Source of the DNA: Xanthocytophaga agilis
GTDB lineage: Bacteria; Bacteroidota; Bacteroidia; Cytophagales; 172606-1
Length of the DNA stretch: 64,000 nt
Direction: 5' to 3'
Assembly (NCBI RefSeq): GCF_030068605.1
Contig: NZ_JASJOU010000001.1
Location: 1,426,001-1,490,000, forward strand
The notes under the pieces were generated by a model that worked only from the letters and a program-made list of their open reading frames with translations, was not told where the DNA came from and ran no database searches. Position 1 is the stretch's first letter; each line of letters starts with the position of its first letter. Both the position numbers and the translations under genes were made by a program. This document shows, in pieces, positions 14,233-58,840 of this stretch.

Positions 14233-14483
14233 AGGTGATTGGGGTTTGTATATGATTAAAAGACTCTGACAAATTTATAAAATATGGGAAACCCAAGCCC
14301 TAAACTCTTATCTTGTTCCGTATCTTTTTTGTTTTAGAGTTATTATCACAATTGTAAGCTCAAGGTATTGATTTGAAAATCCGTTCAGCTCAGTCAACTT
14401 AAGCAACATCCACTCTTTCCTTATCTTCTTTTACTCTCCGGAAAAGAACACACTATCTTCCCTGTCCTCGTCTCCCCTTTTTT

Positions 14484-14595
14484 GTCCTCCTGTAAGGATC
14501 TCGTGACAAGACCGGCGGCCTTTCCGAGTGGAGAGTATTATTTCTCTCGGAAAGTAAACGCAACTCTATTTGTCACGAGATTCTTTCAGAAGGAC
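14484..14595 (+). repeat. Dispersed repeat family B, intact 112-bp core (copy 1)
   Basis: The core has inverted arms of 26 bp (GTCCTCCTGTAAGG... at the left and ...TTTCAGAAGGAC at the right) around a 60-bp centre. It is followed to about 14712 by purine-rich degenerate units resembling CTTTCAGGAGAACAAA. In this copy the inner arm reads CTCGTGACAA and TTGTCACGAG, so both sides changed together relative to other copies. It fills most of the 520-bp gap between the M1 and DHDPS-family genes. Confidence 0.85.
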
Positions 14596-14701
14596 AGATA
14601 AGGAAATCTTTCAGGAGAACAAAAGAGGAAATAATCCTTTCGGAAGGACTATAAAAAGACCGAACGAAGAGACTGATCCTTTCAGGAGACAAAAAGAGAG
14701 A

Positions 14702-19103: not shown

Positions 19104-22100
19104 TTATTTATAGAGCCATACTCTCATCAATGATAAAAGCTGATCAATTTTAACAGGTTTGGTGATATAGTCAGATGCTCCCGCTTCAATACACTTTTCA
19201 CGGTCGCCCTTCATCGCCTTAGCTGTTACAGCTATGATAGGCAGATTGGTATTTTTATGTTCCCGCCTGATTTTCTGTGTGGTTTCATAGCCATCCATTT
19301 CAGGCATCATAATATCCATCAGTACAATATCAATCCGGTTATTCTCCATCAGAATATTAATAGCCTCCTGCCCGCTTTCGGCTGTGATAGTATTGATATT
19401 GAAACGTTCAAATGCTGTTGTCAATGCAAACAGGTTACGTACATCATCATCTACCACCAATACATTTTTATTAGCCAGAATATCCTCTTTGGAGCGAAGA
19501 TTCTCAATAATCTTTTGTTTTTCAGGCAATAAGTCTTTATGATCCAGATGCAAATGCAGCACTGTCTCTTCCAGTAACCGATCCAGAGACTTCACATCCT
19601 TCAGTAATACCCTGTTGGCATATTGCTTCAGCTGTATCTTTTCTTTTGGCGAAAAGTCTTTGGCAGAATAAATCAGTACAGGTGTAATAGTATTCTTTTT
19701 AATGGAATTTACTTCTGTAATGAAGTCCATACCACTGATATCAGGCAGCATAAAATCTACACTGATACAATCATACATATTATTCCGGATTTTTTCCAGC
19801 CCTTCTTCACCAGTGGTAGCAATTTCAATATCTACCAAATCTCCATTGTCCAACATCTTCACCATTTGTGAAGAATCCAGCTCATTGTCTTCTACGATCA
19901 GGAGCTTTTTAGGGTTCCGGTTATGAAAATCTGTGATATCGTTAAACAATATCGTCAAAGCTTCATTTTTCAATGGCTTCTGCTGGAAGCTGCGAGCTCC
20001 TCTCTGCATCGCCAGTAATCGGTTTTCTTCTCCGGAAATCAAATGGACAGGGATATGCCGGAAGTTGATATCATTTTTAAAGAGATCCAGAATTCTCCAG
20101 CCACTGGCATCCGGAAGTTTCACATCTAGGGTGACTGCAATAGGACTGTATTTATTAGCCAGATCAAATACATCTCCGAATCCGGTAGCCACTACTACTT
20201 TGAGATCTACATCGTGTGCTTTTTCGATCATGATCTTGGCAAAGCGCAGATCATCCTCTACCACGAGCACTACCTTGTCATTCAGAGTGATATTGGTTCG
20301 GTCATCTCCGGTTTCATTGATGATCTCATTCAGCCCTTCCAAATCTTTTGTTTCAGTCACTTTTACAGTTGGTACAGACTGAATAGCCAGTTCATCGCTT
20401 TCTGACAGTTTGTATTCGCTGACAGTTAAACTGCTCTGTTTTTCTTTTTTAATCAGGTTTGGATTGTAGTCAATAGGAAGGAACAAAGTAAATGTACTAC
20501 CTCTGCCTGGTTCGCTTTCCAGTTCTATTGATCCACCCAGCAACTCTGCCAATCCCCGGCTGATTGATAAACCCAGACCTGTTCCACCATATTTACGGCT
20601 GGTAGAGCCTTCTGCCTGCTGAAAGGCCTCGAAAATGATATTCTGCTTGTCTTTGGAAATACCGATACCTGTATCTCTGATCTCAAATGCTACAGTAAAC
20701 GGTGCCTTATCCAGACTGATGTTACCTGGTTTCCAGTTGCGCTGAGCATGATAGATCCGGAATCTTACCTCTCCTTTCTCTGTAAACTTAAATGCATTGG
20801 ACAAAAGATTTTTCAGGATCTGATTCAGACGTTGAATATCTGTTTCCAATGTATCCGGCAGTTTTTCATCTATCTCAATACTGAAACGAAGATTCTTGTT
20901 CTCTGAAATGTGTTTAAACGTTGTTTCTACGAATGACGTAATTTCATTGAAGCGAACCTTGATAAAGTCAGTTGATATGTATCCGGATTCAATTTTAGAA
21001 AGATCCAGAATATCATTAATCAATTGAATCAGGTCATCTCCGCAACTGTGAATGGTTTTGGCATATCGTACCTGCTTTTCCGTAAGATTACCTTCTCTAT
21101 TCTCAAAGAGTTGTTGAGCCAGAATAAGCAGTGAGTTTAATGGTGTACGCAACTCATGCGACATATTGGCAAGGAACTCAGACTTATACTTAGATGTAAG
21201 CTGCAACTGTTCTGCTTTTTCTTCCAACGATTTCCGTGCTTCTTCTACTTCCTTGTTTTTGCCTTCCACTTCTTCTTTTTGCTTCACCAGCAAGTGTGCT
21301 TTATCCTGCAGCTCCTCGTTGGTACGACGTAGCTCATCGGTAAGTGATTGAGACTGTGCAAGTAGCTCTTCTGTACGAGTATTGGTTTCAATGGTGTTCA
21401 ATACGATACCAATACTTTCTGTCAGCTGACTCAGGAAGTCCAGGTGAATTTCACTGAATGGTTCGAATGATGCCAGCTCAATTACTGCCTTGATTTCCTT
21501 TTCAAACAATACAGGCAATACAATCAGGTTTACTGGTGACGAATCTCCCAAACCGGAAGCAATCTTGATATAATCTTTTGGTACGTTGGTCAGTAGAATA
21601 CGTTCTTTGTCCAGAGCACACTGTCCGACCAGACCTTCTCCCAATGCAAACTCCCTGCTGATATGCAGATCATTCTTAAAGGCATAGGAAGAGAATAGTT
21701 TCAGTTTCTTATTCTGAAGGTTTTCATCCTGTTCCAGAATATAGAACATCCCTTGTTGTGCGTTTACTACCTGAGCCAACTCAGAAAGAATCCGTCGTGT
21801 TACCGTATTCAGATCCTTCTGTCCCTGCAACATCTGGGTAAACTTAGCCAGGTTCGATTTCAGCCAGTCCTGCTCCTGGTTGCGTAAGGTAGTTTCTTTC
21901 AGGTTGGCAATCATCTGGTTGATGGTGTCTTTCAACTCTTCTACCTCACCCTTGGCCTCTACCCGAATCATCTGAGTCAGATCCCCTTTCGTTACCGCAG
22001 AGGCAACTTCCGAAATTGCCCGTACCTGAGTAGTCAGGTTTTCAGCCAGCTGGTTTACGTTTTCCGTCAGGTTTTTCCAGATACCCGATGCGCCCGGCAC

Positions 22101-24395
22101 ACTGGCCTGTCCACCCAATCGACCTTCAACCCCTACCTCACGAGCCACCGTTGTTACTTGGTCGGCAAACAACGCTAACGTATCAATCATTTCGTTGATG
22201 GTATCTGTCAACTGCGCTACCTCACCACGTGATACGATGGATAACTTTTGCTTCAGGTTACCCGTTGCCACGGCAGTCACAACCTTTGCAATACCCCGTA
22301 CCTGGTTTGTCAGGTTGGACGCCATCATGTTTACCGAGTCGGTCAAATCTTTCCATGTACCTCCTACACCCGGCACTTCCGCCTGCCCACCGAGTTTACC
22401 TTCCGTACCTACTTCCCGTGCCACACGCGTTACCTCAAAGGCAAACGAGTTCAACTGGTCCACCATCGTGTTGATCGTGTTTTTCAGGTCGAAGATCTCC
22501 CCTTTTACGTCGATAGTTACTTTCTTGGACAAGTCACCTGATGCCACAGCTTTCGTTACCTCGGCAATGTTCCGTACCTGAGAAGTCAGGTTACCCGTCA
22601 TCTGGTTTACTGAGTCGGTCAAGTCTTTCCATGTACCAGCCACACCCGGTACGAATGCCTGCCCACCGAGTTTACCATCTGTACCTACCTCCCGTGCCAC
22701 ACGTGTTACTTCGGATGCGAATGCCCGAAGCTGATCCACCATCGTGTTGAGCGTTTCTTTCAGCTGAAGGATTTCTCCCCGCACGTCCACGGTAATCTTA
22801 CGTGACATATCCCCGTTCGCCACGGCAATCGCCACATCAGCAATGTTCCGTACCTGAGCTGTCAGGTTACCAGCCATCTGGTTTACTGAGTCGGTCAAAT
22901 CTTTCCATGTACCTCCAACACCTGGCACGTTTGCTTGCCCACCGAGTTTACCTTCCGTACCTACTTCCCGTGCCACACGCGTTACTTCGGATGCAAATGC
23001 CCGAAGCTGTTCCACCATGGTGTTAATCGTATTTTTCAATTCGAGGATTTCTCCCTGAACGTCTACCGTAATCTTCTTCGACAAATCTCCATTTGCCACG
23101 GCGGTTGTTACCTCAGCAATGTTCCGCACCTGGGCTGTCAGGTTCGACGCCATCTGGTTTACAGACTCGGTCAAATCTTTCCAAACTCCACCTACCCCTT
23201 TTACCGTTGCTTGTCCACCGAGTTTACCTTCCGAACCTACTTCCCTAGCCACCCGTGTTACCTCGGCAGAGAATGAGTTGAGCTGATCCACCATGGTGTT
23301 AATCGTATTTTTCAGCTCAAGGATCTCTCCTTTCACATCCACGGTAATCTTACGCGACAAGTCTCCTCGGGCTACCGCTGTCGTTACTTCTGCAATGTTT
23401 CGAACCTGACCAGTCAGGTTGGACGCCATCTGGTTTACTGAATCGGTCAAATCTTTCCATGTACCAGCCACACCTTGTACTTCTGCTTGCCCACCGAGTT
23501 TACCATCTGTACCCACCTCTCTTGCTACCCGAGTCACCTCAGAGGAGAAGGAGTTGAGCTGATCCACCATGGTGTTAATCGTATTTTTCAGCTCAAGGAT
23601 CTCTCCCTGAACGTCTACTGTAATCTTTTTCGACAAGTCACCTTTCGCTACCGCTGTTGTTACTTCTGCAATGTTCCGTACCTGAGCTGTCAGATTACCA
23701 GCCATCTGGTTTACGGAATCGGTCAAATCCTTCCAAACTCCACCTACCCCTTTTACCGTTGCTTGTCCACCGAGTTTACCTTCCGAACCTACTTCCCGTG
23801 CCACCCGTGTTACCTCCATGGAGAATAGATTCAGCTGCTTCACCATATCATTTACTTCTGTAGCAATACGGGCAAACTCTCCCTGCAATACGTGATCGCC
23901 AATCTGGAGAGGCATTTCCTGCGACAGGTTTCCTTTTGCTACCGAACCAATCACGTGTGCTATCTCAATGGTAGGATGCACCAGATCGGAAATCAGGCTA
24001 TTGATTGAATCCACACTTGAGCTCCACGAACCTCTGGCATAACGTGGTAGTTCTACACGGTGATTGAGCTTTCCCTGCTTACCAATAATGCTTCTGGCAG
24101 TGGTAAGTTCGAGAACCAAGCTCTCATTGAGAGAAATAATATCATTTAATGTATCACAAATTTTTCCGGAAAGTCCGAGCTGATCAACAGGCATACGGAC
24201 TGAGAAATTGCCATTCTTCACTTCAGCGAGTACCCTAAGCAATGCTTTAGCATCCAATTCATCATCAGATGAACCAAATGGCTTTGCATGTCCGTTCGTT
24301 CCGTCCGGTGTATGAAGCGACATATCTACTTCAGCCGTCTCTGCTACAGGTGATACCTGTGAAGTTCCATTCGTGGATTTTTTTCTAGAGTTCAT
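19104..24395 (-). CDS. Giant soluble poly-HAMP hybrid histidine kinase with three receivers
   Basis: The 1763-residue protein has no transmembrane segment. After two divergent HAMP-like units (about 50-190) come seven tandem units of about 92 residues (about 195-830), each with '[20 protein letters not shown]', '[18 protein letters not shown]' and '[14 protein letters not shown]'. Then follow a GAF domain (about 850-1005; [14 protein letters not shown]), a coiled coil, HisKA with the His in [10 protein letters not shown] (about residue 1082), HATPase ([18 protein letters not shown]), and three receivers (about 1368-1488, 1495-1615, 1642-1763) with Asp in [16 protein letters not shown] and VLMDIMMPE. 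The layout resembles fungal group III (Nik1/Os-1) osmosensing kinases and other poly-HAMP kinases. It is the first gene of an operon with the kinase at 17796-19097. The tandem units are also DNA repeats (about 276 bp) across 22030-23880. Confidence 0.92.
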
Positions 24396-31994: not shown

Positions 31995-32262
31995 AAATGC
32001 CTTATCATGTCCGATATCTTTTCTGGAAATGAAGATGTTTCTTGCGCGGGTTTCCATTCAATGCTGTCACTTAAGGAAAGTTGTTTCTTTTCCTCTTATT
32101 TCTTTATTGTCCTTCTGAAAGAATCTTCCCGCCCACGCCGATGCGTGGCAGGCAGTTAGTGCCATGTTTGGTTTATGAGCGAAAGAATATTCTCCAGTTG
32201 GGAAGGCTACCGGTTTTGTTAGGGAGTATATTTTAAAAGGACAAAAAGGGGGAAGATGAAAG
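31995..32262 (-). repeat. Diverged, inverted copy of dispersed repeat family B (copy 2)
   Basis: The block starts with ATATCTTTTCTGGAAAT, contains GTCCTTCTGAAAGAATCTTC, and later has a diverged inverted centre (AATATTCTCCAGTTGGGAAGG) and AAAAGGACAAAAAG. It matches the reverse orientation of the intact copies but has diverged and appears to carry an insertion near 32130. Confidence 0.55.
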
Positions 32263-32683: not shown

Positions 32684-33031
32684 TCAAATTCGTTTGAAGA
32701 TCATTTTATACTTTGTACCAAATCGAATCCTCTTTAGCCAAATAATTATCAAAAGTCCCACAATGTTGAGTAAAACACTGAAAAAAATATTGTCTACTGT
32801 ATTAGGAGTAGTGGTATAACGATATCCCTTTGCTAAAAAATACTTCTCCTGCTCTTCCCATAGAGCTGATTCTCCAGCTACTACCTCCCATCCTATTCCA
32901 GCATATTCAGACTCTTCAAACACATATACTTCTTTTGTGAGATGATTAACTGCTAAGGCATCAACTGTACAATAAGAGGGCAAAGAAAATAGCAGAAAGC
33001 TGATCAGGAGTATAGATTTTATAATTCGCAT
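32684..33031 (-). CDS. Small envelope protein directly downstream of CRISPR array 1
   Basis: The 115-residue protein starts with a signal peptide (MRIIKSILLISFLLFSLPSYC) and has a second hydrophobic segment near the C-terminus (NIFFSVLLNIVGLLIIIWL) followed by a basic tail. No domain is recognised. Its ATG at 33031 lies inside the degenerate last repeat of CRISPR array 1, and it is read in the same direction as that array (minus strand). It may therefore be transcribed through the array, or from a promoter lying within array DNA. Whether this is meaningful or just where the array happened to stop is unknown. Confidence 0.6.
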   Translation of the reverse strand: MRIIKSILLISFLLFSLPSYCTVDALAVNHLTKEVYVFEESEYAGIGWEVVAGESALWEEQEKYFLAKGYRYTTTPNTVDNIFFSVLLNIVGLLIIIWLKRIRFGTKYKMIFKRI

Positions 33032-33983
33032 AGGATTCCTATATGGTACAATTAAGATTTCGTAATATTATAACTATACAGCTTTTTAGCATACATTTCA
33101 ATTCCTCTATGGTACAATTAAGATAAAGAACGCTCATGCAAAAGCAGGTATACATTCTAAATTTCAATTCCTATATGGTACAATTAAGATAAACGCTTTC
33201 TCGCTTAGCGTATGCACACTACCAAAATTTCAATTCCTATATGGTACAATTAAGATCAGATGAAGACCCTCTCTTTAACCTACCGATCATGCATTTCAAT
33301 TCCTATATGGTACAATTAAGATTTTTCAAGTCCACGTGTCCTAATAGCTTGGCAATAAATTTCAATTCCTATATGGTACAATTAAGATCCACAGGGAAGT
33401 GTGTCTTTTCAATTTATACTTGCATTTCAATTCCTATATGGTACAATTAAGATCTCTTGCATACTTATGCTGCACTACCATTCAGGAAAATTTCAATTCC
33501 TATATGGTACAATTAAGATCCTGCTCGTCTAGTGTGAGAGGTCTCTGGCTACCTCATTTCAATTCCTATATGGTACAATTAAGATCCTGCTCGTCTAGTG
33601 TGAGAGGTCTCTGGCTACCTCATTTCAATTCCTATATGGTACAATTAAGATCCTGCTCGTCTAGTGTGAGAGGTCTCTGGCTACCTCATTTCAATTCCTA
33701 TATGGTACAATTAAGATTTGATCATACGGAAAGATATCGTGTCCTCTTTTATGTATTTCAATTCCTATATGGTACAATTAAGATTGCATCGTCCCAATAC
33801 TTCAGCAAATTCTCTCCTTCATTTCAATTCCTATATGGTACAATTAAGATCTGGATAACGATCATCAGATAGGCTATAGAAGGTCGATTTCAATTCCTAT
33901 ATGGTACAATTAAGATCATGAGCGATGTCAACAATATTAATCATTGCAGGATCATTTCAATTCCTATATGGTACAATTAAGAT
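33029..33983 (-). CRISPR. CRISPR array 1: 15 repeats, 14 spacers, transcribed leftward
   Basis: Thirty-base repeats occur about every 66 bases, with first bases at 33029 (degenerate), 33095, 33161, 33227, 33293, 33359, 33424, 33490, 33556, 33622, 33688, 33755, 33821, 33887 and 33954. Read on the minus strand the repeat starts ATCTTAATTGTACCA, then TAT, then AGGAATTGAAAT. The 3' part gives the ATTGAAA(N) handle typical of type I-B Cas6 products, which sets the direction. Spacers are 35-37 bases. The repeat at 33029 is degenerate at its outer end and that at 33095 has a CTC/CTA change, as expected at the leader-distal end. The spacers at 33520-33555, 33586-33621 and 33652-33687 are identical. 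Confidence 0.97.
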
Positions 33984-34191
33984 CCGTTAGAAACGAAGCT
34001 AAAAATAGCGTTTTCAGCACAAAAACGCAGCTTTTATAATTTGTTTTTTCGTAAAAAGTCGTCGATGTGTAATACTATAATTGACCCAGGGGTTCGACGA
34101 CTCGCTGACTACCAGACAATTACCTTTAAAAATAGCCCGTTAGAATGCTTTCTTGGTTGAATCAACATAGACTTTTTTGCCGGTCGACGAC
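33984..34191 (-). promoter_or_regulatory. Leader of CRISPR array 1 with three TCGACGAC boxes
   Basis: The 120 bases next to the array are, in reverse complement, nearly identical to the leader of array 2. Boxes are at 34058-34065 (GTCGTCGA), 34094-34101 and 34184-34191 (TCGACGAC). A GCGTTTT/AAAACGC inverted repeat lies close to the first repeat. The region is also the divergent upstream region of the WYL regulator-cas operon, so the boxes could serve both directions. Confidence 0.85.
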
Positions 34192-42991: not shown

Positions 42992-43510
42992 GTAGGGGCG
43001 ACTGGCGGTCGCCCACATTCCCACAGACACAACATAGATATCCGAAGGATTTGTCTCTTAAACCCGATCATTTGCATATGGAAACTGGGCCATGGGTCTT
43101 ATCGTGTCCCATATCTTTTCTGGAAATGAAGGTTTTAAAAAGAAAGACGCTGGTTCGAACGTCCGTTCGGACCTATATTGAAAGCAACGTCCGTTGCGTT
43201 GGGGCAAATTGATACTTGTTCAGGTTTGTGATAGTACCTAAACAAGGTTTTACCCACCAACGCAGCGGACGCTGCTCTCAAAATGGGCACAAGCGGACGC
43301 TTGCGCCAGAAATTTTCTTTATTTCCAGAAAAGATATGGGACATGATAAGACACATGGGTGCGCCCCTACAGGGTCGGAATATCCCAGGCAGGGTTTGCG
43401 GGAACCAGGGCGACCGCCAGTCGCCCCTACAGGGTACAATGCTGGTTTACAAATCCGAACATTCCCTGCACGAATCCGGGCGCACACGCAGGTGCGCCCC
43501 TACATTGTTG
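42992..43510. repeat. REP-like inverted repeat block between cas4 and cas1
   Basis: A 23-bp unit at 42992-43014 (GTAGGGGCGACTGGCGGTCG...) recurs as an exact inverted copy at 43408-43430. Within it, arms at 43091-43127 and 43321-43357 (CATGGGTCTTATCGTGTCCC... and its complement) are near-perfect inverted repeats of 37 bp. The enclosed 190 bases hold several small imperfect palindromes around CGTCCG/CGGACG. A further GTGCGCCCCTAC unit lies at 43358 and 43490. The block interrupts the cas operon by about 1 kb and may separate cas1-cas2 from the upstream transcript. Bases 42750-42990 show nothing else. Confidence 0.75.
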
Positions 43511-44807: not shown

Positions 44808-45016
44808 GTCGTCGATCGGTAGTTTAGGTATGTACAATTAAAGTACTTGCATGCCGCAAAACCCTTACAAATACACATAACATATTGACTATCAACAAGT
44901 CGTCGAACCCCTGGGTCAATCGTAGTATTACACATCGACGACTTTTTACGAAAAAACAAATTACAAAAGCTGCGTTTTTATGATGAAAACGCTATTTTTA
45001 GTTCCGTTTTTAACGG
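44808..45016 (+). promoter_or_regulatory. Leader of CRISPR array 2 with three TCGACGAC boxes
   Basis: Boxes are at 44808-44815 (GTCGTCGA), 44899-44906 (GTCGTCGA) and 44935-44942 (TCGACGAC). The inner pair are 36 bases apart and the outer one is 91 bases further, matching 36 and 90 in the array 1 leader. The last 118 bases before the first repeat differ from the array 1 leader at only about ten positions. A GCGTTTT/AAAACGC inverted repeat is present in both. The sequence must carry the array promoter and the spacer-integration signals. Confidence 0.88.
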
Positions 45017-46301
45017 ATCTTAATTGTACCAGTAAGGAATTGAAATTAACATGCCATGTTCGGTATAGGTGGCATATACGATATCTTAATTGTACCAGTA
45101 AGGAATTGAAATGATCGACAGGGGACAATCCAATAGCTGTCCATTTGATCTTAATTGTACCAGTAAGGAATTGAAATTATTATGCGATCAAGTCATATTC
45201 GCATGGGGTTCATATCTTAATTGTACCAGTAAGGAATTGAAATTTGTAGTATTTGGTGGACTTGCCGCCGCTGCAGGTCATCTTAATTGTACCAGTAAGG
45301 AATTGAAATTCAGCAGCCTAACCCTAGTTCATTCTCAGCAACACTATCTTAATTGTACCAGTAAGGAATTGAAATTGCCATCTTCACCGATTTCAACTAT
45401 AAAGCAATCTTATCTTAATTGTACCAGTAAGGAATTGAAATGACGATACTGATAATACTTCTGGTATATGGGCAGGATATCTTAATTGTACCAGTAAGGA
45501 ATTGAAATATGCAGATAAGCTAGTGTTCGGAAATGGCACACACAATCTTAATTGTACCAGTAAGGAATTGAAATTTGTTGCTGTCATACTCATTATTATA
45601 GTGCAGCTCAATCTTAATTGTACCAGTAAGGAATTGAAATGCGTGTAACTGATATAGTTCAACCTCAACCTGCATCATCTTAATTGTACCAGTAAGGAAT
45701 TGAAATATCGGTGAAAGCCTGTTTTTCTTTTTGTACGATTTCATCTTAATTGTACCAGTAAGGAATTGAAATGACAGATGGAAAGAGCGAAGCCGGACAT
45801 TTGAGGGTAATCTTAATTGTACCAGTAAGGAATTGAAATTGGCATAGGTGTACATAGGTTCTCAAAGTATTGTACATCTTAATTGTACCAGTAAGGAATT
45901 GAAATATTTCTTACTGAGGGATGAAGATTACTATAGCCTGGATCTTAATTGTACCAGTAAGGAATTGAAATGAGGCGAAAACTTTCAAGCGTTGGGTAAC
46001 CAAAGAAATCTTAATTGTACCAGTAAGGAATTGAAATAAAAAGGTTACATCCAAAACAACTGTTGCGGATATAATCTTAATTGTACCAGTAAGGAATTGA
46101 AATTCGCAATACACAGAACTATAGCCTATTTCAGACAACATCTTAATTGTACCAGTAAGGAATTGAAATATGTTGCTGAAGCAAGGATACTTGACAATGA
46201 TCGATATCTTAATTGTACCAGTAAGGAATTGAAATTCTGTTAGATACGCAAAAACGTTTTGTTGTCTTCCAATCTTAATTGTACCAGTAAGGAATTGAAG
46301 T
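45017..46301 (+). CRISPR. CRISPR array 2: 20 repeats, 19 spacers, transcribed rightward
   Basis: Repeats of 30 bases start at 45017, 45083, 45148, 45214, 45280, 45346, 45412, 45479, 45545, 45611, 45677, 45743, 45810, 45876, 45942, 46008, 46074, 46140, 46206 and 46272. The repeat is ATCTTAATTGTACCA, then GTA, then AGGAATTGAAAT; array 1 has TAT at the central three bases. Spacers are 35-37 bases and all look different. The last repeat (46272) ends ATTGAAGT instead of ATTGAAAT, the expected decay at the leader-distal end. No spacer was seen to match another place in this window. Confidence 0.97.
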
Positions 46302-46443
46302 TATAGCGGCTTGAACTATCAGAGGTTGACCAGTAAGAGATTACACCTCCTGGATAATTCTTATATATTTCTCCCGGAAATATCGGACCATATACAAACC
46401 AAGTAAATCGACAACTGTCTTCTAATGTGCATTGCTTCATCAT
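46240..46443 (-). pseudogene. Possible 5' gene fragment abutting the end of array 2
   Basis: A minus-strand frame starts at 46443 with a protein-like stretch (MKQCTLEDSCRFTWFVYGPI, then GGVISYWSTSDSSSRYNF) and then runs into the degenerate last CRISPR repeat and spacer. The first 46 residues could be the N-terminal remnant of a gene cut off by the array. It could equally be chance. I keep it as a weak call. Confidence 0.25.
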
Positions 46444-47047: not shown

Positions 47048-47215
47048 TCAAAAACCAAGCATGGCTCTATTTGTCACAAGATTCTTCCAGAAGGACAAAA
47101 AAGGGAAAACTCTTTCCAAAGCATAAAGAGAGCATTCTTTTTACAAGAACAGGAACGATTTCTTCCTTTCCTGCTGAAAGGAAAAAATTTGTTTCTTCTC
47201 GAAGAAGGTTATCTT
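47048..47215 (+). repeat. Partial copy of dispersed repeat family B (copy 3)
   Basis: The right half of the 112-bp core (GCTCTATTTGTCACAAGATTC, then CCAGAAGGAC) is present without the left half, followed by the purine-rich tail units (GGGAAAACTCTTTCCAAAGC). It lies between the small membrane protein and the 3' end of the permease gene. Confidence 0.7.
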
Positions 47216-49611: not shown

Positions 49612-49888
49612 ATAATCTCTGTTGCTAAGGTACAAGTGTTTGAATTAGAGTCTAAGCAACTATTTTGCCATAGCGAAAAACAGCTCTTCTCAGCTATCTA
49701 AAAGGCTATCATACAGCCATATATACTATAATTTGTCCGTTTACGGACAGTACTTGTACGATTTTGAACTATAGGACAACACCACATACTGTACTACCCT
49801 GTCCTAAATTTGGTAGTAGAATCAACCTGAACGTTGAGAAAGTGGTCGTTGGTGATAAAACCAACGACGGAAATAAAACATCCTCCCT

Positions 49889-50325
49889 GTCCTCCTGTAA
49901 GGAACTCATGACAAGACCGGCGGCATTTCCGAATGGGGGATGTCCAAAACAAGGGTTACAAAAGAGATAATCATTGTATAGATGTTACTATGTCTTATTA
50001 TGTGTATATAATAACGAATCCTACCAAGACTACTTTATATACAGGTGTGACCAATGATCTGGCAAGATGTATGGCAGAACATCGTGAAAATAGAGGAAAC
50101 CCAGCCTCTTTTGCTGGTAAATATCACTGCTATAAATTGCTCTATTATGAAACATTCCAGAATATAAACGATGCAAGAGGACAGAGAAGAAGAATGTTCC
50201 TTTTAGAAGGACAAAAAGGTGAGAGGAAAAAAAAGGGTAAAAAGGCAGGGAAAAGTGAGAGGCACAAAAAAGAAATATTTCCCTAAAACCTTCAGAACTG
50301 AAAAAGATAACTAAAAAGATAAGCT
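49889..50325 (+). repeat. Expanded family B copy enclosing a GIY-YIG gene (copy 4)
   Basis: The left arm and left centre of family B occur at 49889-49938 (GTCCTCCTGTAAGGAACTC, then GACAAGACCGGCGGCATTTCC). The right arm occurs at about 50196-50212 (TTCCTTTTAGAAGGAC), followed by the tail found behind other copies (GAGAGGCACAAAAAAG, TTTCCCTAAAACCTTCAGAA). The normal 60-bp centre is replaced by about 280 bases containing a GIY-YIG reading frame. Confidence 0.7.
49990..50286 (+). CDS. GIY-YIG nuclease-like protein with aberrant C-terminus
   Basis: The Met at 49990 gives the family's usual start, MSYYVYIITNPTKTTLYTGV, with both the GIY-equivalent (YVYIIT) and YIG-equivalent (LYTGVTNDL) motifs, the Arg and the 'AEHR' helix, and 'YKLLYYETFQNINDA'. 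Small stand-alone GIY-YIG proteins then normally continue 'IxREKQIKxxxRxKK', which contains the metal-binding Glu. Here the frame instead continues ARGQRRRMFLLEGQKGERKK, encoded by the right arm and tail of repeat family B. The 98-residue product is therefore probably inactive. It is either a gene captured by the repeat or the decayed cargo of an autonomous form. Confidence 0.65.
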   Translation: MSYYVYIITNPTKTTLYTGVTNDLARCMAEHRENRGNPASFAGKYHCYKLLYYETFQNINDARGQRRRMFLLEGQKGERKKKGKKAGKSERHKKEIFP

Positions 50326-52265: not shown

Positions 52266-52425
52266 ATTATTTCTCTTTCTTCTCCTGCTAAAAGCTCTCT
52301 AAAAGAACCACTATCCCTATCCTTCAGAAAGTATTGTTACTCCCCTTTGTTCGTCCTCTTGAAAGCCCTACCCTTTTGTTCTCATATAAATACACCTTCT
52401 TATTTTCCTGAAATCCCCTTTCCCT

Positions 52426-52537
52426 GTCCTTCTGAAAGAATCTTGTGACAAGACTGGCGGCCTTTCTGAGTGGAGTGTATTCTTTCTCTCAGAAAGTAAA
52501 CGCAACTCTATTTGTCACAAGTTTCTTTCAGAAGGAC
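52426..52537 (+). repeat. Dispersed repeat family B, intact 112-bp core (copy 5)
   Basis: The left arm 52426-52451 (GTCCTTCTGAAAGAATCTTG...) and right arm 52512-52537 pair at 25 of 26 positions. Flanking DNA from about 52280 to 52680 holds further degenerate units: pyrimidine-rich CCTTTTGTTCTCATA-type on the left and purine-rich CTTTCAGGAGAACA-type on the right. Together with family A copy 2 this fills the 1.1-kb gap between the VOC and thioredoxin-fold genes. Confidence 0.85.
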
Positions 52538-52826
52538 GAAAAGGGAAAAGGACAGGCAAGGGAAAATTCTTTCAGAAGGACACGAAGAGAGGAAAGGATA
52601 CTAAGGAGTGTTCCTTTCAGGAGAACAGCAAAGGGGAAATGCTTTCAGGAGAACAAAGAGAGATTGTGCTTTGAGGTAAAATTTTTCCTTGTTAATCATT
52701 AAGGTTCAATAACATGAATAAAACAGTTAGTAAAACATATTCAGGGGCTTAGTATGCAAATAATCCACATAAAGTAGTAAATTAAGTGTTTTACTCCTAC
52801 AGACCCACAACCTCTTATACTCAAAG

Positions 52827-54876: not shown

Positions 54877-55002
54877 ATGGCATTAACGCTAACCTTACTC
54901 ACCTCAAGATCAGACTGTGACAAAGTCCTTGATCAACTCAGCGACCTGAGAAGCGACCTGGAGTTTAAGCAAATCTCCTTACACCCTTTTTTGTCCTCCT
55001 GA
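54877..55002 (+). pseudogene. 5' gene fragment cut by a family B repeat
   Basis: An ATG at 54877 opens a protein-like frame, MALTLTLLTSRSDCDKVLDQ followed by LSDLRSDLEFKQ, which resembles the start of a small helical Bacteroidota protein of unknown function. At about 54985 the sequence changes into repeat family B and the frame ends soon after in LSS and a stop. The insertion seems to have removed the rest of the gene. Confidence 0.5.
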
Positions 55003-55104
55003 AAGAACCTCGTGACAAGACTGGCGGCCTTTCCGATTGGAGAGTATTTTTTCTCTCAGAAAGTAAACGCAACTCTATTTGTCACAAGATTCTTTCAGAA
55101 GGAC
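54993..55104 (+). repeat. Dispersed repeat family B, intact 112-bp core (copy 6)
   Basis: The core starts GTCCTCCTGAAAGAACCTCG and ends AGATTCTTTCAGAAGGAC, with a centre of 60 bases. The homologous tail continues to about 55215 (CTTTCAGATAGAAATAAGG, then CAGAAAAGTTATGGAACAAG). It is nearly identical, in inverted orientation, to the copy at 58627-58738 including the tail. Confidence 0.88.
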
Positions 55105-55274
55105 AAAATGGGGAAATCCTTTCAGATAGAAATAAGGAAAGATCTTTTCAGGAGAACTTTGTTCTTTAGTTACAAACCTCTTTCCCAGAAAAGTTATGGA
55201 ACAAGATAAGGGTTGGCCTTCTTCGTTCTTTGAAATAGGGATGCAGACCGTCAATGGATAGATTAGTCTTACAA

Positions 55275-56645: not shown

Positions 56646-56732
56646 TTATTTAATCAGAATCACATCATCAAGATAAAATCGCTCATCCTGCCCATCAGGT
56701 CCTTGATGTTTATGAATGAAAATACACTCCAT
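56646..56732 (-). pseudogene. C-terminal gene remnant next to a family B repeat
   Basis: A short minus-strand frame ends IHKHQGPDGQDERFYLDDVI followed by LIK and a TAA at 56646. The sequence resembles the C-terminal strand of secreted lectin-like or glycan-related domains ('DGxDERFYLDDVxL'). Upstream (from about 56734) it is cut by repeat family B. I read it as the 3' end of a gene destroyed by the repeat. Confidence 0.45.
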
Positions 56733-56733
56733 T

Positions 56734-56790
56734 TGGAAAGGCCGCCGGTCTTGTCACGAGATTCTTTCAGAAGGACAGAGAAAAAGGTAA
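56734..56790 (-). repeat. Partial inverted copy of repeat family B (copy 7)
   Basis: GGAAAGGCCGCCGGTCTTGT, then CACGAGATTCTTTCAGAAGGAC, is one half of the core in reverse orientation. The rest of 56791-57024 holds nothing else I can support. Confidence 0.7.
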
Positions 56791-58510: not shown

Positions 58511-58626
58511 AAACCGAGAGCTTATCGTTTCCCATACCTTTTCTGGAAAAGAGGTCTGTAAATAAAGAACAAAGTTCTCCTGAAAAGATCTTTCCTTATT
58601 TCTATCTGAAAGGATTTCCCCATTTT

Positions 58627-58738
58627 GTCCTTCTGAAAGAATCTTGTGACAAATAGAGTGGTGTTCACTTTCTGAGAGAAAAAATACTCTCCAATCGGAA
58701 AGGCCGCCAGTCTTGTCACAAGATTCTTTCAGAAGGAC
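58627..58738 (-). repeat. Dispersed repeat family B, intact 112-bp core, inverted (copy 8)
   Basis: The core runs from GTCCTTCTGAAAGAATCTTG to GATTCTTTCAGAAGGAC. The tail to the left (58510-58626) is the near-identical inverted equivalent of 55105-55215. To the right, about 58739-58835, lies the alternative tail (GTGAGAGGACAAAAAAGAG, CCCTAAAATATTCAAAATTG) that also follows the GIY-YIG-bearing copy. Confidence 0.88.
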
Positions 58739-58840
58739 AGCGAGGAGATCTTTACTTAAGGAAGACAACAAGGGTGAGAGGACAAAAAAGAGTTTTCCCT
58801 AAAATATTCAAAATTGAAAAAGTTATGGGACAAGATAAGC

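Follow-up and report, generated by a model that had tools for sequence, protein, structure and literature searches.

A GIY-YIG nuclease gene bracketed by REP-like inverted repeats as a candidate minimal mobile element in several bacterial phyla

Background

REPs with a GTAG tag occur together with RAYT (TnpA-REP) tyrosine transposases in units known as REPtrons (PMC3733652, PMC8266576). REPs of the CGTC type, which include dRS3 of Neisseria and RPE-4 and RPE-6 of Rickettsia, were stated in 2013 to have no dedicated transposase (Di Nocera; PMC3733652), and GIY-YIG proteins are not mentioned in that account. The Rickettsia and Neisseria repeats, along with many repeats of alphaproteobacteria and Bacteroidota, were left without a mover at that time. 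GIY-YIG proteins of the UPF0213 type have been grouped with the structure-selective nuclease Slx1 (PMC7017083); no mobility role for UPF0213/COG2827 proteins was found in the open-access literature. No paper linking GIY-YIG genes to REPs was found there either, the later papers on CGTC REPs and REPtrons being represented by their titles, the beginnings of their abstracts and term counts.

We analyzed a window of 64,000 nucleotides from Xanthocytophaga agilis (contig NZ_JASJOU010000001.1) in which a GIY-YIG frame is associated with a repeat that we call family B. The arrangement resembles a REPtron in that one small gene is bracketed by a genome-wide REP family, gene lineages are specific for their repeats, and there are non-autonomous inverted dimers comparable to REPINs. 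It differs in that REPtrons combine an HUH/Y1 transposase with GTAG repeats, whereas a GIY-YIG nuclease and CGTC or TGTC tags are found here; lacking a RAYT, the locus is not a REPtron. As for CGTC REPs, the GIY-YIG genes of Azospirillum, Rhizobium, Shinella, Aeromonas, Neisseria and others are flanked by canonical head-to-head pairs whose tags lie outside, but the arms in the window (family B) diverge from these in their TGTC tag and short stem.

The protein belongs to UPF0213 and matches PDB entries 1zg2 and 1ywl, which places it in the same UPF0213/COG2827 family as YhbQ of E. coli and YazA of B. subtilis, within the Slx1 group. It shares its catalytic domain with GIY-YIG homing endonucleases, which are likewise selfish, decaying and patchy. 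The element differs from these in the absence of introns, inteins and any visible separate DNA-binding domain, and in the high-copy repeats that bracket it. The match to a group I intron endonuclease model (NCBIfam TIGR01453) scored 24.5 bits, below the cut-off of 56.

The window copy and its intact relatives

The initial annotation described a GIY-YIG nuclease-like frame and, about 100 bases before the gene, a left arm of family B; both observations were borne out. A GIY-YIG domain was recognized in the frame at 49933-50286 (PF01541, E 1e-9; score 39 bits, cut-off 22.6). As the listed ORF start at 49933 falls within the arm, the ATG at 49990 is the likely start of the GIY-YIG gene. The left arm (Table 1) matched the family B copy at 14483-14531 with 92% identity over 49 nt and, with 91% identity over 68 nt, the left of the two 67-bp inverted repeats in an intact element of a sister genome of the same genus (G001). 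At this orthologous locus, whose flanks were 98% and 95.5% identical to those in the window, an intact 93-codon gene lay between 67-bp inverted arms of 95.5% identity.

Relative to the sister genome, the window copy was about 150 bp shorter, owing to an internal deletion that ran from codon 62 (approximately position 50175) into the final bases of the right arm. It removed the C-terminus and its catalytic Glu, together with the right arm except for AGAGGACAG. The catalytic domain was therefore incomplete, although the remnant retained the GIY (YVYI) and YIG (LYTGVT) motifs, and the last 36 codons of the frame consisted of DNA from beyond the element. The absence of the Glu region, as well as the description of this copy as probably dead, had been anticipated from the window alone and agreed with the comparison. 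The right arm and tail had also been taken as the 3' end of the gene, which was incorrect: both lie downstream of the complete right arm in G001, and the supposed arm is the neighboring half repeat TTCCTTTTAGAAGGACAAAAAGG. The window holds a dead copy of a putative minimal mobile element, its nuclease gene broken by the deletion.

Table 1. Positions in the window of the GIY-YIG/REP element and of family B copies
Feature	Position	Strand	Remarks
Left terminal arm, family B type T1	49881..49948	+	TGTC tag 49888-49891
GIY-YIG 5' part still present, 62 codons	49990..50175	+	PF01541; C16 homologue; orthologue in G001 (L039)
Deletion junction and final right-arm bases AGAGGACAG (50176-50184)	50175..50184	+	Gap relative to G001 at 50174-50176
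Read-through 3' end of frame	50185..50286	+	DNA external to the element in G001
Separate half repeat TTCCTTTTAGAAGGACAAAAAGG, external to the element	~50197..50219	+	In G001, downstream of the complete right arm
Family B non-autonomous copy, heterotypic inverted dimer	14482..14597	+	Long hairpin, z -7.3
Family B non-autonomous copy	52424..52538	+	
Family B non-autonomous copy	54991..55105	+	z -4.7
Family B non-autonomous copy	58626..58740	-	
Partial family B copy, arm-sized	56720..56787	-	
Partial family B copy, right arm	47065..47107	+	

A second short GIY-YIG gene was present in the 9.77-Mb genome that contains the window (G000). This gene (contig C16, 80756-81034) was intact, about 75% identical to the window remnant, and bracketed on both sides by family B arms (61 bp at 85%). 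The GIY and YIG motifs, the Arg and the catalytic Glu were all kept in the intact copies L038 and L039 and in the 12-row alignment A1. The expectation that further GIY-YIG genes would have family B flanks was thus confirmed by the only other short one in the genome, and the arms of this gene and of the sister copy speak against the chance capture that had been considered as an alternative. No family B motif was found in the loci of the UvrC-like and exonuclease-like GIY-YIG genes of G000. A fifth match in the genome (L037) scored 14 bits, below the cut-off, contained one stop and was rejected as a gene. Over about 99 kb compared between G000 and G001, there was no presence/absence difference in family B, and only the deletion in the window copy differed; because no copy was gained or lost in this interval, family B appears to be hardly active in these two genomes.

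Family B repeats

Copies of family B were about 115 nt long, with inverted ends that begin TGTCC and finish GGACA, and a complete copy formed one long hairpin (z -7.3). A lone arm folded no better than its shuffles (z +1.0) and had an inner stem of 4-5 bp. All 30 copies examined paired one arm of the window/G001 type with one arm of the C16 type; homotypic dimers may be under-counted, because these 30 were the best matches to a mixed query. The tag in the aligned copies was TGTC in 29 of 30 and GGTC in the other. This tag falls within the definition of CGTC REPs (CGTC, or TGTC/CCTC), but the arms lack the stem of 8-9 bp starting with AT, the loop of 4-5 and the CCA tail, and because of the differences in stem and tail we refer to family B as CGTC-like and not as a CGTC REP.

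Family B is similar to MITEs in its length, its inverted ends, its lack of coding capacity and its abundance (about 100 dimers), and differs from them in that no target-site duplication was detected and no IS-type transposase partner was present. None of 29 family B dimers had abutting direct repeats, their flanks continuing instead as an inverted pyrimidine/purine run. Target-site duplications were also not found at dimers of a REP-rich complete genome (G160) in a small sample of 10.

The family B tag TGTCCTYCTGWAAGRA occurred 200 times in G000 and 179 times in G001, and none of 37 other relatives had more than one. Among these 37 was a 72% complete genome of the same genus (G002), in which the gene was missing as well. 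As anticipated in the initial annotation, gene and repeat tracked one another: family B was present in only two of 39 relatives, the two that have the gene.

Another repeat family, CTTATCNTGTCCCATATCTTTTCTGGAAA, was observed in the window at 31998-32039, 43090-43136, 43317-43358 and 58521-58559, also as an inverted pair, and some family B copies appear nested inside it.

REP bracketing of homologues in Bacteroidota and beyond

Homologues were gathered from Bacteroidota by protein similarity alone (n = 80), and 75 of these had sufficient flanks. Inverted repeats scoring 35 bits or more flanked 29 of the 75 genes, compared to 3 of 350 neighboring ORFs and 1 of 252 random positions. A CGTC-type REP was located within 300 nt of 68 of the 75 genes, against a REP background of 3-4% per 300-nt tile and strand and 1.3% in shuffled flanks. 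The tags pointed outward on both sides at 44 of the 75 and inward on both sides at 8. The most compact unit, in Chryseobacterium, measured 401 bp, the stop codon abutting the downstream REP. In seven genomes that were searched in full, REPs flanked 11 of the 13 genes of this type versus 4 of 12 other GIY-YIG paralogues. The reading of the window as a matter of family B was therefore too narrow, as the association extends over a much wider family.

Fourteen further loci came from a plasmid collection that included chromids and some misfiled chromosomes; they were mostly from Alpha-, Beta- and Gammaproteobacteria, with one cyanobacterium and one Spirosoma. Canonical CGTC REPs pointed outward on both sides of nine of these homologues (Azospirillum, Novosphingobium, S. 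meliloti, Neisseria, Rhizobium CIAT894, Sphingobium, Aeromonas, Shinella and Neorhizobium). At the same threshold of 35 bits, 9 of the 14 loci had inverted repeats, versus 3 of 132 control ORFs. Several proteobacterial REPs corresponded exactly to the published definition, with a CGTC tag, a stem of 8-9 bp starting with AT, a loop of 4-5, a CCA tail and head-to-head pairs. Examples are CGTC-ATCCCCGC-GAAG-GCGGGGAT-CCA in Azospirillum and CGTC-ATCCTCGGG-CTTGA-CCCGAGGAT-CCA in Sinorhizobium and Shinella; the repeat of Neisseria and Aeromonas was CGTC-ATTCCCGC-GCAG-GCGGGAAT. Some homologues (L149, L156) had no REPs.

On plasmid p1 of Planktothrix agardhii (L150 2992-3276), the GIY-YIG gene was situated between an MmeI-type restriction enzyme and DISARM drmA. 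A reading of the gene as part of a defense system was set aside, the PADLOC matches being marginal only.

Association of gene and repeat across genomes

Among 149 genomes of the class, a strong GIY-YIG gene of this type was found in 25 of the 29 genomes with at least five copies of CGTCATTGCGAGG, versus 26 of the remaining 120 (odds ratio 22.6, p 1.5e-10, a statistic that ignores phylogeny). Other GIY-YIG proteins showed no link of this sort. The type of REP stem also followed the GIY-YIG tree, with 21 changes compared to at least 30 in all 300 shuffles. Shared ancestry accounts in part for both the co-occurrence and the agreement with the tree.

The complete genome G160 contained 565 REP heads and no GIY-YIG gene of this type, and REPs therefore persist without the gene. 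In stretches L326-L345 of this genome, many elements had extra tandem half-REPs at their ends (CGTCATTGCGAGG plus approximately 7 nt), and dimers nested in dimers were observed as well.

Behavior of gene and REPs as a unit

In Pedobacter soli (L078 2921-3931), two adjacent copies were 98% identical, and the similarity spanned CGTC to GACG with differing flanks. Duplicated GIY-YIG/REP units near each other in one locus were seen in four unrelated genomes (L078 2921-3931, L094 2661-5113, L121 2792-4027 and L146 2709-3470).

Units were also gained or lost at fixed sites. In Azospirillum lipoferum 4B (L144 2857-3475), a unit between two head-to-head REP dimers separated sufB from sufC; it was missing from this position in three close species whose flanking genes were 95-97% identical. 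A common site on Sphingobium plasmids had the unit in some and lacked it in others, and the GIY-less allele in TYG64 and TYG74 consisted of one palindrome with a tag at each end (CGTCACCCCGGG TCAAG CCCGGGGTGACG in TYG64). The gap between barnase and barstar in 78 Chryseobacterium genomes ranged from empty, through remnants, to a full unit. The copies at this one site had a median dN/dS of 0.094, indicating purifying selection, and several were broken. Insertion polymorphism, edges exactly at the REP tags and a dN/dS of about 0.09 support a mobile unit with what would be an active nuclease. The S. meliloti plasmid pSymB had too few REPs to serve as a system for REP polymorphism.

Gene-free alleles with one double-tagged palindrome were observed at L323 850-995 and L322, and in Chryseobacterium at L302 (CGTCACCCCGGGTCAAGCCCGGGGTGACG; GTCATTGCGAGGAGCGTAGCGACGAAGCAATGAC). 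Such solo palindromes could be explained equally well by collapse of a unit through half-stem microhomology or by an empty target.

Proposed mechanism and alternative explanations

The element consists of a UPF0213/COG2827-type GIY-YIG gene of 93-105 codons between two inverted REP-like arms with their TGTC or CGTC tags outward. We infer that intact copies would encode a structure-selective nuclease that recognizes the arms, most likely as a hairpin, a cruciform or the tag, and cleaves the DNA where the arms end. The bracketed DNA could then be copied to other sites by host repair or replication. Any sequence with two suitable inverted arms would be movable in trans, and family B, with arms, a short centre and no gene, would for this reason represent the non-autonomous population, in the way that REPs relate to RAYTs. 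We consider it likely that the element is mobile in this manner and that family B is moved in trans by the nuclease. The view of the window copy as a decayed autonomous form, with the other family B copies as its non-autonomous derivatives, is now strongly favored, mobility itself being read from the distribution and edges of the units.

To our knowledge, GIY-YIG enzymes are hydrolytic, and strand transfer would for that reason need host repair. The missing target-site duplication is more easily reconciled with such a route through repair than with a classical DDE transposase, and proves nothing. On balance it is probable that CGTC-type REPs and related repeats of several phyla are mobilized by a GIY-YIG nuclease dedicated to them, and by no transposase of a known class. 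This enzyme would define a class of minimal elements, about 400-500 bp long and with a single gene of about 100 codons, whose spread depends on nuclease cutting of their own palindromic ends and on host repair. We propose that the nuclease may be the missing enzyme of CGTC REPs and a non-RAYT counterpart of REPtrons.

The main rival explanation holds that a selfish gene of the homing type lands in existing REP palindromes, which it cuts, and is copied in by repair through half-stem homology, while the REPs are not spread by it. Cutting followed by homologous repair is the ordinary route of GIY-YIG homing enzymes, and the 565 REPs of G160, which lacks the gene, also speak for this explanation. 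The double-tagged palindrome of Sphingobium TYG64 and TYG74, and the similar one in Chryseobacterium (L302), could be the uncut target. Although these solo palindromes and G160 keep the explanation alive, the palindromes are equally readable as collapsed units, and a possible target of this kind was seen in Sphingobium and Chryseobacterium only, the flanks of other GIY-YIG sites, such as that of Azospirillum, having none. The duplicated unit of Pedobacter soli takes in both REPs and has differing flanks, and family B is restricted to genomes with the gene lineage. Insertion of a homing-type gene into REPs spread by other means is therefore unlikely to account for the association.

It appears quite improbable that the nuclease moves nothing and is instead a resident enzyme whose task is to trim hairpins or branched DNA at REPs, its adjacency to them reflecting mRNA regulation or shared tolerated gaps. 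Such a service to the host would accord with strong purifying selection at a site that is inherited vertically, with the structure selectivity of the wider Slx1/YhbQ/YazA group (PMC7017083) and with the retention of GIY-YIG genes by E. coli and other bacteria. However, the genes are patchy at orthologous sites, decay frequently, occur in tandem and, within a single genome, include paralogues that differ in REP type, all of which looks selfish. Simple accumulation of REPs in the intergenic gaps where the gene happens to be is hardly credible: REPs do concentrate in intergenic DNA near many genes, but flanking inverted repeats were rare at neighboring genes (3/350 and 3/132), the tags point outward on both sides, the pattern recurs in several phyla, and the neighbor-ORF, random-position and shuffle controls exclude chance or hitchhiking.

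With movement by the bracketed nuclease as the favored reading, the recurrent gene-in-repeat layout, the matching tags, the geometry and the distribution make the question of what moves CGTC REPs testable at the bench. If correct, this would be a second, enzymatically unrelated solution to the problem solved by REP and RAYT. A large family whose only annotation at present is "GIY-YIG nuclease family protein" would also acquire a function, and it would become clear how many short palindromic repeats originated.

Other repeats in the window

Two CRISPR-like arrays (33022-33985 and 44995-46302) shared a near-identical 30-nt repeat in opposite orientation and were about 11 kb apart. In the first array, at approximately 33520-33690, one spacer was present three times in identical form. 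A 276-bp unit was repeated seven times in tandem at 21969-23846, with 61-78% identity to the reference copy.
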